64,000 bases of DNA from Synechococcus sp. SynAce01 (GTDB lineage Bacteria; Cyanobacteriota; Cyanobacteriia; PCC-6307; Cyanobiaceae): assembly GCF_001885215.1 (NCBI RefSeq), contig NZ_CP018091.1, positions 806,001 through 870,000 on the forward strand, in the 5' to 3' direction. The position numbers and the translations under genes were made by a program. The notes under the pieces are model-generated. The model was not told the origin of the DNA. It did not search any database and worked only from the letters and a program-made list of their open reading frames with translations. Shown piece after piece: positions 30,637 to 49,823 of this stretch (position 1 is its first letter; every line of letters begins with the position of its first letter).

Positions 30637-32319
30637 TCAGAATTTGAACCTCGTCTGAATCAGGCCGCCGAAAACGTTGAAATCGCCATTACTACTGGTG
30701 AGCTGACCGAGGGGACGGCTGAGGTAGAAGATCGCTGGAGTCACCGAGATGTTATCGGTGACCTGGAACTTGTACCACCATTCCCAGACGAAGTTGCCGT
30801 CGTTGGGTGTGGTGTTCTGGCCATCAATGGAACCCTGAGACAACTGGGTGGCGAAGGTGGCCTGGCCCACAGCCATGCCGGCATCGTTGCCCTTGGCAAA
30901 CACATCCTTCCACTTGAGGCCGGCGAACCAGCTCTGCGACTGTGTCACAAAGGGATCTTCGAATTCATTGCCGGAGCTGTTGATGGAGTTATCGGACAGA
31001 GAGTTCAAGCCCCAGCCCACGCTGATCGAAGGAATGATTCCAGGGTTCTTGGGCTGCCAGTAGGCGTTGACAGCAAAGTTGTTGGACTCGCCGTTGGCCA
31101 AGAACCAACTGTTAGAGGAGACGAAGTTGGTACCACGGCGGAAGTTGGTGCCTTGCTGGCCGTAGCGATAGGCCAGTGAAACATTCCACTGAGGTGCAGT
31201 GTAGTTCAGCTGGGCCGTGATGCTGCCACGAGCACAATCGGTACCAATACCACCTTCGCTTCCTGAGCAGTTATTGGGATTGCCGTCAAAGACCTGGCCA
31301 ACATTGCCTTGCTGCGCCACGTAGTTCGCCGCGAAGCTGAAGCGACCACGACCTTTCTCGACATTCTGCCTCCAGATGGCAGCAACCAGCGCACCGGTGG
31401 CTTTGTTATAAACGCCAGGAGCACCGTTAACAGAGAAGTAGTCGAGTATCCCGCTGCCATAAACCGAAGGCGTGACAGCCAAGGATTCGGTATTTCTAGC
31501 CCTGGGGCCAACAACAAACGTGAATTGATCGCCAACTGGGAATCGATAGTAGAGCCTGTCAACGCCGACACTGTTATTCCCTCCGATCCCACTGCTTGCT
31601 CGATCAAGAGCAGAAGTGTTCACACCATCGCCAGCAAAGGCGTTTTCGAAGTTGCCTGAACGAAGACGGGTGAACAGCAGATCCTTGCCGGTGAAGCTCG
31701 TCTCGAGATTGAGACGAACGTCATAGCTGAAATTGGTGGATCCGAACTGCTGGTTGTAGTTATCGGCATCATTGCCAGGGCCAAAGGCTCCGGATGAGCT
31801 ATTTCCACCGGCATTCACCGCACCAAGCACGAAGGTGGCTTCACCTTTGAGCACGGTGGTGGTGGAGAACTGACTGGCTTCGAGTTCACCCACTTTGGCC
31901 TCAAGGCCATCGACCCGGCCCTTGAGCACGGAGAGTTCAACCTCGAACTCCTTCATCAGCCGGCGCAATTCATCGGTCACCTCGGTGATCCGATCCAGGC
32001 AGGCGTTGAGCAGGGCGGCGGCTTCCCAGCGGCTCAGCGGGCGCTTGCCGCGGAAGGTGCCATCGGGATAGCCAGCCACGCAGCCGTAACGCTCAACCAG
32101 ATTGGAGAGAGCCTGATAGGCCCATTCCGTTGGCTGAACATCGGAGAACTGGGTGATGCTGGTGACTTGATTCCGGCTTTTCGCGGAACCAGGCCGGGCA
32201 TAGGCGTTGATGGCCTCAAGATTGAGGCCATCAACATTCAAATCAGAAGCGGACGCGGCCAGCGGACTGAGCAGCCCAAGGGCAGCCGGTGCCAGCAGGA
32301 ATTTCTGGAACAGTTTCAT
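30637..32319 (-). CDS. SLH-domain outer membrane porin (iron uptake porin / Som family), copy 1
   Basis: The 560-residue precursor has a signal peptide (MKLFQKFLLAPAALGLLSPLAASASD). An S-layer homology domain follows (FSDVQPTEWAYQALSNLVERYGCVAGYPDGTFRGKRPLSRWEAAALLNACLD), then a coiled coil (ELRRLMKEFEVELSVLKGRVDGLEAKVGELEA). The long OprB-like beta-barrel ends GGLIQTRFKF, with the C-terminal Phe. These are the major cyanobacterial porins anchored to peptidoglycan by SLH. ATG 32319 has AGGA as Shine-Dalgarno, which is also the site of Yfr1 complementarity. The open frame upstream to 32436 is not used. A paralogue lies directly upstream in tandem. Confidence 0.93.
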   Translation of the reverse strand: MKLFQKFLLAPAALGLLSPLAASASDLNVDGLNLEAINAYARPGSAKSRNQVTSITQFSDVQPTEWAYQALSNLVERYGCVAGYPDGTFRGKRPLSRWEAAALLNACLDRITEVTDELRRLMKEFEVELSVLKGRVDGLEAKVGELEASQFSTTTVLKGEATFVLGAVNAGGNSSSGAFGPGNDADNYNQQFGSTNFSYDVRLNLETSFTGKDLLFTRLRSGNFENAFAGDGVNTSALDRASSGIGGNNSVGVDRLYYRFPVGDQFTFVVGPRARNTESLAVTPSVYGSGILDYFSVNGAPGVYNKATGALVAAIWRQNVEKGRGRFSFAANYVAQQGNVGQVFDGNPNNCSGSEGGIGTDCARGSITAQLNYTAPQWNVSLAYRYGQQGTNFRRGTNFVSSNSWFLANGESNNFAVNAYWQPKNPGIIPSISVGWGLNSLSDNSINSSGNEFEDPFVTQSQSWFAGLKWKDVFAKGNDAGMAVGQATFATQLSQGSIDGQNTTPNDGNFVWEWWYKFQVTDNISVTPAIFYLSRPLGQLTSSNGDFNVFGGLIQTRFKF

Positions 32320-32323
32320 TGGA

Positions 32324-32333
32324 TCCTCACACC
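32324..32333 (-). promoter_or_regulatory. Candidate Yfr1 small-RNA target site on porin 1 mRNA
   Basis: The mRNA here reads GGUGUGAGGA, ten bases, ending 4 nt before the AUG and covering the ribosome binding site. It is the exact complement of UCCUCACACC, part of the conserved single-stranded core of the cyanobacterial RNA Yfr1 (ACUCCUCACAC). In Prochlorococcus MED4, Yfr1 is reported to repress two porin mRNAs by pairing in their 5' leaders. Yfr1 itself is not in this window. Confidence 0.7.
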
Positions 32334-32533
32334 AATTGAGGGGGCGACCGTTAGGAAGCTTGGCGCAAGTGTATCGAATATGCCAAAAAAATTGTCGCAT
32401 CTGATCACAACTTGGTGTGCTCAGCGATACACGCACAAGCCGGCTGCTCCTGCTGCTTCAGCACAGTCAAATCCGGCTCATCCAACAAAGCAACAGCACA
32501 AGGGTGCCCACACAAAGAGAGATTCAAAAGGCC

Positions 32534-32561
32534 AAAAAAAAGCCGCGACAGAAGCCGCGGC
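32534..32561 (-). terminator. Rho-independent terminator of the second porin gene
   Basis: On the minus strand a perfect 6-bp stem GCCGCG/CGCGGC with an 8-base loop is followed by eight T. It lies about 77 bp after the stop of porin 2 (32638), so the two porins are probably transcribed separately. Confidence 0.85.
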
Positions 32562-32637: not shown

Positions 32638-34293
32638 TCAGAACTTGAAGGTGGTCTTGACGAGACCGCCAAAGTTGTTGAAGGTTTCGTCGCTATCAGA
32701 CTTTTGGAGCTGACCCAGTGGTGCACTCAAGTAGAAGATCGCAGGTGTCACGCTGATATTGTCGGTAACCTGGAACTTATACCACCACTCCCAGGCATAG
32801 TTGCCGTCGTTGGGATCGATCAAGTCGTCATCACCCCAGCTGGTAAGGAAGGTGGCCTGGCCGACAGCCATGCCGGCGGCGTTGCCCTTGATGAAGACGT
32901 CGGTCCACTGCAGACCCACATACCAAGACTGGCTCACGGCGCCATCAATGACGTCTTCAACAGCACCGGCAGAGCTGCTACTCGCGTTGTGGGAATTAAG
33001 ACCCCAACCCGTGCTGATCGAAGGAATCCAACTGGAATTAGAAGGCTGCCAATAAGCGCTGATGCCAACAGAATTCACGCTGTCAGACAGAGCAAAGCCC
33101 AGATTGGCTAACGGAGTGCCGTTACCGCTGTACAGACCAACGAGACCACCCTGAGGTGATGTGTAGGTATAGGTCGCAGCAAGGCCAAAGTTCTCGTTGT
33201 TCCAAGCGACTTGGGCAGTACCCGTCTGAGCTGAGGACTCGTTACCGATGCCGCCAGGGTTATTCGAGAAGATGTTAGGGCCGCCGTTGTTACCATTAGC
33301 GGCTACATAGTTAGCACTGATGCTAAAACCACCGCTCTGCCACCACAGGCCAGCACCGGAGCCAAGAGCCAAGGAATAAGCACCGGGAGCACCGGCGTAG
33401 GTGAAGACATCAAGAACTGTGTCAGCCGGGTAGACGCTAGGCCATACGGCAAGCATGTCATCCTGACGAACTCTGGCACCAAAGGTGGCAGTAAAACTCT
33501 TGCCGACGGGGAACTGGTAGAAGAGGCGGTCAATGCCAACGCTGTTGGCACCAGAGCCTTCTTCAAAGGCGACTTCGAAGGTGTTCAGGCCGACGGGTCC
33601 AGTACCCCAAGGGCTGGAGCCGAAGTTGCCGGCGCGAAGGCGAGTGCGGAGCAGATCCTTACCGGTGAAGCTGGTGTCGAGGTCAAGCCGCAGGTCGTAG
33701 TTGAATGCTGTAGCTCCCTGCTGGGTAGCCGCAGCATCAGAGAATCTCTGACCAGGAAGTACCGAGCCGCCTGAAAGTACGGACTCAGCAATGCTAGCCC
33801 TGGCTGAACCGCCATAGGAGTTGGCGCCAACAATGAAAGTGGCTTGGCCGCTGAGCTTGGTGGTGGTGGAGAACTGATTGGCCTCCAGCTCGCCGACTTT
33901 GGCCTCCAGGCCATCGACCCGGCCCTTGAGCACGGCCAGTTCGGTTTCAAACTCCTTCATCAGCCGGCGGAGTTCATCGGTCACCTCGGTGATCCGGTCC
34001 AGGCAGGCGTTGAGCAGGGCAGCGGCTTCCCAGCGGCTCAGCGGGCGCTTGCCACGGAAGGTTCCATCGGGATAGCCAGCCACGCAGCCGTAGCGCTCCA
34101 CCAGGTTGGAGAGAGCCTGGTAGGCCCACTCGGTGGGCTGCACATCACTGAACTGGGTGATGCTGGTGACTTGCTCCTGGGAGTCGGCGTAGCGGTTGAC
34201 GCCGTCAATGTTGAGCTCTGATGCCGTAGCGGCCATTGGTGCCAACAGACCAAGGGCTGCAGGCGCCAGCAGCATTTGCTGGAAAAGTTTCAT
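32638..34293 (-). CDS. SLH-domain outer membrane porin (iron uptake porin / Som family), copy 2
   Basis: The 551-residue precursor is a paralogue of copy 1. The signal peptide (MKLFQQMLLAPAALGLLAPMAATASE), SLH domain and coiled coil are almost identical to copy 1 over the first 150 residues. The barrel diverges strongly, with different loops and the end GGLVKTTFKF. Both genes share the motif YKFQVTDNISVTPAIFYLS near the C-terminus. This pattern of conserved anchor and variable barrel suggests different solutes or different exposure to phage and predators, but that is inference. ATG 34293 has a GAGGA Shine-Dalgarno. It has its own Yfr1-complementary site and its own terminator. Confidence 0.93.
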   Translation of the reverse strand: MKLFQQMLLAPAALGLLAPMAATASELNIDGVNRYADSQEQVTSITQFSDVQPTEWAYQALSNLVERYGCVAGYPDGTFRGKRPLSRWEAAALLNACLDRITEVTDELRRLMKEFETELAVLKGRVDGLEAKVGELEANQFSTTTKLSGQATFIVGANSYGGSARASIAESVLSGGSVLPGQRFSDAAATQQGATAFNYDLRLDLDTSFTGKDLLRTRLRAGNFGSSPWGTGPVGLNTFEVAFEEGSGANSVGIDRLFYQFPVGKSFTATFGARVRQDDMLAVWPSVYPADTVLDVFTYAGAPGAYSLALGSGAGLWWQSGGFSISANYVAANGNNGGPNIFSNNPGGIGNESSAQTGTAQVAWNNENFGLAATYTYTSPQGGLVGLYSGNGTPLANLGFALSDSVNSVGISAYWQPSNSSWIPSISTGWGLNSHNASSSSAGAVEDVIDGAVSQSWYVGLQWTDVFIKGNAAGMAVGQATFLTSWGDDDLIDPNDGNYAWEWWYKFQVTDNISVTPAIFYLSAPLGQLQKSDSDETFNNFGGLVKTTFKF

Positions 34294-34297
34294 GAGG

Positions 34298-34306
34298 TCC
34301 TCACAC
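34298..34306 (-). promoter_or_regulatory. Candidate Yfr1 small-RNA target site on porin 2 mRNA
   Basis: The mRNA reads GUGUGAGGA, nine bases, ending 4 nt before the AUG and including the Shine-Dalgarno. It is complementary to the UCCUCACAC core of Yfr1. The flanking bases differ from porin 1, so the nine shared bases stand out as the constrained element of an otherwise diverged leader. Confidence 0.68.
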
Positions 34307-34456
34307 ACGAGTTGGCGCAATGCGCACAAGGCAACCATCGTTCAAGGGGGCCAGCTTGGCGAGGGGAGATGTGACAGAACGCACAACGTCCTTGGCAGGC
34401 CACGGCAGGTTCAAACTGGCGGCACTGACGCGTCGGATGCCCTGACCTCCCGATCG

Positions 34457-48371: not shown

Positions 48372-49823
48372 TCAATCGACTTCCGGATGGGTGGCTGGAT
48401 CGGCCGCTGGATCTACCCCCAGGGCGGCCACCAAGGCCTCCGCCACAGTGCCTGCCTCCAGTAGTTCCAGCCCCAATTCAGCCGCACTTTCCCCCAGGCC
48501 ACTGCCGCGGGGCACCACGGCACGGCGAAAGCCCAGGCGGGCGGCCTCCTGCAGACGCAGCTCCAGCTGGCCGACCGGCCGCAACTGCCCGCCCAGGCCC
48601 AGTTCGCCCACCAGAACGGTGCCGGCCGGCAAGGTCAGATCGCGAAAGCTGGTGACCACCGCCGCCGCCACACCGAGATCCGCCGCCGGCTCCTCCACAT
48701 CGAGGCCGCCGGCCACGGCGAGATAGCAATCGAAACGGGAGAGCGGCAGGCCCAGGTGCTTTTCCAGCACCGCCAGGATCTGGTGCAGACGGTTGATGCC
48801 GATGCCAGTGGCGGTGCGCCGCGGGCTGGCATAACTGGTGCTGCTCACCAGCGACTGCAACTCCACAAGGAGGGGTCGGGTGCCTTCGCAGGCCACGATC
48901 GTGGCCGTTCCTGCGGTCGGTCCATCGCTGCCTAGGAACAGCTCGCTGGGATTGCTCACTTCAGCGAGCCCCCGATCGCGCATCTCAAACACCCCCAGTT
49001 CCGCCGTGGCGCCGAAGCGGTTCTTCACTGCCCGCAGCAAGCGGTGACTGGCGAAACGGTCACCCTCGAAGGTGAGCACGGCATCAACCAGATGCTCCAG
49101 CACCTTCGGGCCGGCCAGCATGCCCTCCTTGGTGACATGGCCCACCAGCAGCAGGGCCGTGTCCTGGCGCTTGGCCAGGCGCTGCAAGGCGGCGGCGCAG
49201 TCGCGCACCTGGGCCACCGAGCCGGGCGCACTGCTGAGCTCGGCGTCGTGGAGCGCTTGGATGCTGTCGATGATCGCCACGGCCGGCCGCAGGGCTTCGA
49301 GCTCCTGGAGAACCAGCTCCAGGTCGGTTTCAGCCAGGAGCTGGAGGTTGATCGACTCCCCGCCGCCGGGCGAACCCAGCCGTCGCCAGCGCAGCTTCAC
49401 CTGCTGGGCCGACTCTTCGGCGCTCACATACAGCACCGAGCACGACTGCGCCATCACCTGGGCGCTCTGCAGCAGCAGGGTGGACTTGCCGATGCCCGGG
49501 TCGCCACCCACCAGCACCAGCGAACCCGGCACCAGGCCACCGCCCAGCACCCGATCGAGCTCGACGAAGCCGCTGGCCAGGCGCTGCAGCGGCCGCTCGC
49601 CGACGGCGTGAATCGGCTGGGATCGGCGGGGCTTGCCACGGCCTGTCGCCTCGCCTGTCCCCTCGCCGGCAGGCGGCCCCTGTCGCCTGCGGCGGCCATC
49701 GGCGGCAGGGGCCGCCTGCTCGATCAGCGTGTTCCAGCCACCACAGCCTGGACAGCGGCCTAAGTACTGGCGCGACTGCGCTCCACAGCTTTGGCAGACG
49801 TAGAAGGTGGAAAGGCGGGGCAA
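48372..49823 (-). CDS. radA: DNA repair protein RadA (Sms)
   Basis: RadA is a RecA-like branch-migration helicase acting in recombination repair. The 483-residue protein has the N-terminal zinc finger C10-x2-C13 and C24-x2-C27, and Walker A GGDPGIGKST. It also has the RadA-specific KNRFG motif (VKNRFGATAELG) and the C-terminal Lon-like domain (DCYLAVAGGLDVEEPAADLGVAAAVVTSFRDLTLPAGTVLVGELGLGGQLRPV). Length fits the family, with a basic insert (RRRRQGPPAGEGTGEATGRGKPRRS) after the zinc finger. It is divergent from rpaB at 91 bp. Confidence 0.95.
   Translation of the reverse strand: MPRLSTFYVCQSCGAQSRQYLGRCPGCGGWNTLIEQAAPAADGRRRRQGPPAGEGTGEATGRGKPRRSQPIHAVGERPLQRLASGFVELDRVLGGGLVPGSLVLVGGDPGIGKSTLLLQSAQVMAQSCSVLYVSAEESAQQVKLRWRRLGSPGGGESINLQLLAETDLELVLQELEALRPAVAIIDSIQALHDAELSSAPGSVAQVRDCAAALQRLAKRQDTALLLVGHVTKEGMLAGPKVLEHLVDAVLTFEGDRFASHRLLRAVKNRFGATAELGVFEMRDRGLAEVSNPSELFLGSDGPTAGTATIVACEGTRPLLVELQSLVSSTSYASPRRTATGIGINRLHQILAVLEKHLGLPLSRFDCYLAVAGGLDVEEPAADLGVAAAVVTSFRDLTLPAGTVLVGELGLGGQLRPVGQLELRLQEAARLGFRRAVVPRGSGLGESAAELGLELLEAGTVAEALVAALGVDPAADPATHPEVD

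Follow-up and report, generated by a model that had tools for sequence, protein, structure and literature searches.

Tandem SLH-OprB porin genes of Synechococcus sp. SynAce01 as probable targets of the small RNA Yfr1

Yfr1 and porin mRNAs in other bacteria

The porin mRNAs PMM1119 and PMM1121 of Prochlorococcus MED4 are given as validated Yfr1 targets in the available excerpt of the sTarPicker study (PMC3142192), in line with the statement of the initial annotation that Yfr1 is reported to repress two porin mRNAs in that organism. In E. coli, Yfr1 reduced the expression of a PMM1121 reporter 4.7-fold, an effect relieved by Yfr2 (PMC6778093, excerpt), and in Nostoc the repression of alr0834 and alr4550 by Yfr1 was confirmed with Yfr1 mutants (PMC6974561, excerpt). 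The locus described here resembles the MED4 system in its Yfr1 core, in the som kind of porin, in the duplicated pair and in the pairing near the start codon. It differs in the organism, in a ten-pair match at one of the porins and in a third porin of the genome that has no site, and it is known here from sequence. The Yfr1 regulon of Nostoc PCC 7120 is likewise one in which porin mRNAs are repressed via the Yfr1 core, with the majority of predicted sites located at the start of translation. However, its verified targets include cell-wall genes, whereas in SynAce01 an exact-match search assigned the nine-base site to the leaders of two porins only.

In enterobacteria, the small RNAs MicA and MicF cover the Shine-Dalgarno region of the outer-membrane protein mRNAs ompA and ompF, respectively. 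These pairs work alike, although the RNAs and the porins are unrelated to those of cyanobacteria and belong to no common family. An outer-membrane protein mRNA may also be structured in cis, and an RNA thermometer is described for Yersinia ompA (PMC8245352, excerpt). Regulation of porins by Yfr1 is thus already known, and what is newly added is the present organism. Yfr1 occurs in nearly all cyanobacteria; the finding extends its control of porins to the SynAce01 lineage and lends support to the view that this function is conserved. It also sets site-bearing porins apart from a site-less class and exposes a leader hairpin that is directly testable in culturable strains.

The porin pair, its Yfr1 sites and the two small RNA genes

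The window analysed is a 64,000-nucleotide stretch of contig NZ_CP018091.1 (positions 806,001 to 870,000), in which two porin genes form a tandem pair on the minus strand. Porin 1 (30637..32319, minus strand) encodes 560 aa with an SLH domain and an OprB-family barrel, and porin 2 (32638..34293, minus strand) encodes 551 aa of the same SLH and OprB families, with 62% identity to porin 1. PF04966 and PF00395 scored above their cut-offs in both proteins, which are therefore SLH-OprB (som-type) porins. An alternative in-frame GTG for porin 1 lies upstream at 32436; the start codon was placed at the MKLF ATG (32317..32319, minus strand) because this opens the signal-peptide-like N-terminus MKLFQKFLLAPAALGLL. 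In four loci (L048, L049, L050 and L086) the reading frame stays open through the porin leader and encodes GVRT(P) ahead of MKLF or MNLF, so that gene callers may set the start too far 5' and hide the Yfr1 site. Porin 1 probably has its own transcript, since a terminator-like hairpin with a run of eight T behind it lies between the genes, 3' of porin 2 (32542..32561, minus strand), in a region with eight terminator-like sites against 3.5 expected.

The Rfam Yfr1 family (RF01116) has one match in the genome, at 653130-653186 of the contig (minus strand), which scored 65.8 bits (cut-off 38) and contains ACTCCTCACACC. It is flanked by a thioredoxin-like frame with WCGPC and an IMP-dehydrogenase-like frame, one on each side (locus L001), which we take, on reading their motifs, to be trxA- and guaB-like. 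The gene was therefore found near trxA-guaB, as had been anticipated, and the guaB-trxA gap is the usual location of yfr1 (PMC6778093, excerpt). By alignment and fold, an unpaired core ACUCCUCACAC lies between two stems. In this genome the core reads ACUCCUCACACC, which contains the UCCUCACAC originally proposed, and its 11-base form ACTCCTCACAC has a single genomic copy, in yfr1. A Yfr2-type RNA gene is also present (Cyano-1 match, 45.7 bits, cut-off 41); it contains GTGTGAGGGGT, able to cover the Yfr1 core from end to end with 11 pairs, one of them G-U.

On the minus strand, 32333-32317 reads GGTGTGAGGATCCAATG. Within it, GGUGUGAGGA (32324..32333, minus strand) forms ten consecutive pairs with UCCUCACACC of Yfr1, overlaps the Shine-Dalgarno and is separated from the AUG by four bases. 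The initial annotation had proposed ten complementary bases within 32320-32340, a span that includes this site, and its suggestion that the pairing would hide the Shine-Dalgarno agrees with the predicted overlap. The porin 2 site, GUGUGAGGA (34298..34306, minus strand), forms nine pairs, and the sequences ahead of the ATG are GGTGTGAGGATCCA in porin 1 and TGTGTGAGGACCTC in porin 2.

We are largely confident that the two tandem som-type porin mRNAs are Yfr1 targets, repressed via pairing at the Shine-Dalgarno and relieved by Yfr2. The unpaired Yfr1 core would pair with the porin 1 or the porin 2 site, and as the paired stretches include the Shine-Dalgarno, shortly 5' of the AUG, ribosome binding would be blocked and porin synthesis lowered. 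Yfr2, by pairing with the same core, would relieve the repression. This reading is built on observed features, namely both RNA genes, the sites, their position, rank and conservation, and it borrows expression, the direction of regulation and the effect of Yfr2 from other organisms. With the yfr1 gene present and a site in both leaders, the expectation of the same RNA-porin control in this organism is supported by analogy, and Yfr1 very probably turns down both porin genes, as reported in related organisms.

At 32324-32333 lies the only exact copy of the porin 1 10-mer in the window. When up to one mismatch was tolerated, the window gave four matches against 4.2 expected, so that the count alone is unremarkable. 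A chance match was accordingly not rejected by the window count; it was rejected by genome-wide position together with conservation. The nine-base site GTGTGAGGA has eight copies in the genome, one antisense to yfr1, two in the porin leaders and five inside open frames of at least 200 codons, on one strand or both, and only the two in the porin leaders precede a convincing gene start. The pattern GTGTGAGG N3-9 ATG was found at five places, comprising the two porins and three at which no gene start is convincing, one of these inside a longer frame.

Predicted duplexes with Yfr1 had energies of -19.5 kcal/mol for porin 1 and -15.8 kcal/mol for porin 2, leaving net energies of -12.8 and -9.2 kcal/mol after opening costs. 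Among the 393 ATG starts of frames of at least 100 aa in the window, scored against the unpaired part of Yfr1 only, porin 1 ranked first by accessibility-corrected interaction energy. An unrelated start at 48983 ranked second (-10.5 kcal/mol), between the porins, which counts against the Yfr1 reading, and porin 2 took ranks three and four, with its internal and its true start (-9.2 kcal/mol). The expectation that both porins would top such a ranking was thus borne out for porin 1 by window energy and not for porin 2, which stood behind 48983. Energies were computed for the window alone; genome-wide, where exact patterns were used, both porins came out as the only 9-mer copies ahead of convincing gene starts.

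Structure of the porin leaders around the site

It could also be envisaged that control is mainly in cis, with a CCUC-GAGG pairing that masks the Shine-Dalgarno, perhaps in a temperature-responsive manner, and Yfr1 in a secondary role, and we consider this unlikely. A CCTC able to pair, as CCUC, with GAGG begins 8-11 nt ahead of the site in 51 of the 64 leaders of the long-gap class, in which hairpin and site stand far apart; it is present anywhere in the last 20 nt in 53 of the 64, against 6.2 expected from shuffles and 2 of 57 leaders in the other class, the pattern having been chosen, like the Fur-like and CRP-like ones below, after examples had been seen. Porin 1 belongs to the CCUC class and porin 2 to the other. 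The predicted fold of the porin 1 leader includes the CCUC-GAGG pairing as a possible hairpin, CCUCA(AUUGGUG)UGAGG (32325..32341, minus strand), which could mask the Shine-Dalgarno in cis, and possible prior masking of the porin 1 site by such a structure counts against the Yfr1 reading. However, the porin 1 leader is no more stable than its shuffles (z -0.19 over 46 nt and 1.21 over 73 nt), and across both window leaders z ranged from -0.87 to 1.21, with no clear gain in folding over shuffles. Moreover, CCUC explains neither the GTGT of the site nor the class of leaders to which porin 2 belongs.

A second element was seen farther 5'. Among 158 distinct 45-base stretches 5' of the site, 104 contain a strong short hairpin, compared with 16.5 (sd 4.0) in dinucleotide shuffles, and in 91 representatives with less than 60% ungapped identity it was found in 56, compared with 8.8 (sd 2.4). 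The innermost five-pair stems are of 35 different kinds, with GGCGC/GCGCC in 41 and TCCCC/GGGGA in 16 of the 104, so that the pairing has often been kept while the letters changed. An upstream control segment (-140 to -95) also lay above shuffle level (30 of 100 at a score of at least 9), and the hairpin was therefore judged by shuffles together with the spacing to a -10-like box. In 121 leaders, -10-like hexamers gave 75 matches over 60 positions, 34 of them at 5-7 bases before the hairpin. A box at that distance was present in 33 of the 121 leaders, with 23 different stems, and the other 88 have none there. This spacing suggests that the hairpin may be the 5' end of the mRNA, which would place the Yfr1 site inside the transcript.

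The leader hairpin of porin 2, UUG.GCGC-AUU-GCGCCAA (34312..34329, minus strand), is possibly such an mRNA 5' end, while the upstream leader hairpin of porin 1 is weak. A -10-like TACACT ahead of porin 1 (32368..32373, minus strand) predicts a start at about 32361, with a spacing that some of the relatives share. A sigma-70 scan found no promoter at porin 1, and the promoter was therefore judged from the hairpin spacing in relatives. On this basis a porin 1 transcript start downstream of 32333 looks unlikely.

These features allow a tentative picture, possible though doubtful in its entirety, of a picocyanobacterial porin leader module. A 5'-terminal hairpin, with compensating changes, would protect the mRNA and be followed by a short linker or CCUC, with the Yfr1 site over the Shine-Dalgarno coming last. 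Leaders of the CCUC class would carry a copy of the Yfr1 pairing part, cis masking and Yfr1 would compete for one Shine-Dalgarno, and the GGUGU loop would serve as the entry point for Yfr1. Of the MED4 mRNAs, that of PMM1121 is one of the most long-lived (PMC2897979, excerpt), and, in a link that we infer, its longevity would fit a protective 5' hairpin. Nothing on a porin-leader hairpin was found in the literature searched, a weak absence given that most subscription journals lay outside its coverage.

Upstream of porin 2 there is also a CRP-like palindrome, TGTGN8CACA (34370..34385, minus strand). In 35 of the 57 leaders of the porin 2 class the half-site TGKCACA precedes the Yfr1 site by 67-70 bases, and it is present at any position of the region in 9 of the 64 leaders of the CCUC (long-gap) class.

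Conservation of the site and of its RNA partner

The family set comprised 41 genomes, SynAce01 included, each at least 95% complete. In these, GTGTGAGGA with an ATG 2-9 bases further on was found 111 times, against 13 for the reversed control, and a reading of all 111 sites placed SLH-OprB porins downstream of 81, spread over 36 of the 41 genomes. Nine of the 30 non-porin sites are the antisense strand of a Yfr1-core copy, and three of the others open long frames. One of these frames, L197 (at least 301 aa), does not look real. The other two look real and carry the exact site before the ATG, L125 (230 aa) being by reading a putative outer-membrane protein and L099 (204 aa) a putative metallo-hydrolase, and both are possible further Yfr1 targets. 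Porin leaders in G004 and G034 have an eight-base version of the site. No porin site was seen in two genomes with Yfr1, namely G012, where the porin genes are cut at contig ends and the leader is out of view, and G031, where only a site-less porin and a broken piece were found.

A set of named relatives, which shares 6 of the 158 distinct leader stretches with the family genomes, yielded 136 porin frames. Of the 115 that could be scored, 76 have the 9-mer, 14 an 8-mer and 25 neither, giving a site in 90 of 115, or in 86 of 111 once four duplicates from overlapping loci are removed. Synechococcus sp. WH 5701, which is culturable, is among these relatives and has the site at both of its porins (L025). 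The 25 without a site count against the Yfr1 reading, and include L041, which is cut at the locus edge ahead of the leader, and L033, which has one mismatch.

Since the pairing overlaps the Shine-Dalgarno, part of this conservation (GAGGA) is expected anyway, and the stretch might be only the strong extended Shine-Dalgarno of highly expressed porins, with the Yfr1 pairing incidental. GAGGA is a good Shine-Dalgarno, porins are usually abundant, and the two porins share ancestry (62% identical). Yet the GTGT 5' of GAGG is unneeded for ribosome binding and is nevertheless present in the 90 scorable leaders with a site, while the surrounding leader sequence and the distance from site to ATG vary. 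In addition, the 9-mer stands in no other convincing gene leader of the SynAce01 genome, and site-less porin paralogues occur in the same genomes, all of which makes this explanation very unlikely. Complementarity to the Yfr1 core is thus conserved at the translation start, as the reading of these porin mRNAs as Yfr1 targets would have it.

SynAce01 itself has a site-less porin, the third of its genome (contig 1, 2635675-2637204, plus strand; locus L093), with a Fur-box-like ATTATCATT upstream. Among the named relatives, with L041 left aside, a Fur-like pattern, picked post hoc, lies upstream of 8 of 24 site-less porins and 1 of 89 site-bearing ones.

In a phylum sample of 59 genomes there were 119 sites outside the SynAce01 genome and 44 control matches. 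Of the 29 sites that were read, one per genome, eight lie ahead of porins, all within the class. Others among those read stand before frames that by reading are alanine-racemase-like and GlmM-like, in agreement with the published cell-wall targets of Nostoc.

Rfam Yfr1 was found in 34 of the 40 relatives, with no match in G004, G006, G011, G020, G034 and G036. All of these except G011 keep their porin sites, so that Yfr1 itself is not required there. In G006, G020 and G036 the Yfr1 core stands in a different sequence, which resembles the published Yfr10 in kind and has a terminator-like stem behind it; G004 and G034 have one core copy followed by a terminator-like stem, and another that is the antisense of the Yfr2 match. 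These five genomes, in which ACUCCUCACAC occurs in other sequences and is followed by a terminator-like stem, speak for a Yfr10-type small RNA that shares the Yfr1 core, and not Yfr1, as the main user of the site. For SynAce01 this is highly improbable, as ACTCCTCACAC occurs in its genome once, in yfr1, and of the eight copies of TCCTCACAC, the complement of the porin site, the five that are neither in yfr1 nor in a porin leader all fall within long open frames.

The remaining genome, G011, alone among the 40 relatives has no Yfr2 match, and its three porins all lack the site. A clean co-loss of Yfr1 and the porin sites was considered and rejected, since a yfr1 relic persists between guaB and trxA (L281, 1400-1660), with the 11-base core intact and the stems no longer recognisable. 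Judged from these remnants, G011, which is a single lineage with a genome 95% complete, is a case of circuit decay in one lineage.

Finally, a G stands directly ahead of the site in 28 of the 57 leaders for which the next Yfr1 base is C, and in none of the 20 for which that base is A. This match to the next Yfr1 base, in counts that include lineage effects, may be taken as a sign of co-evolution between the porin leaders and Yfr1.
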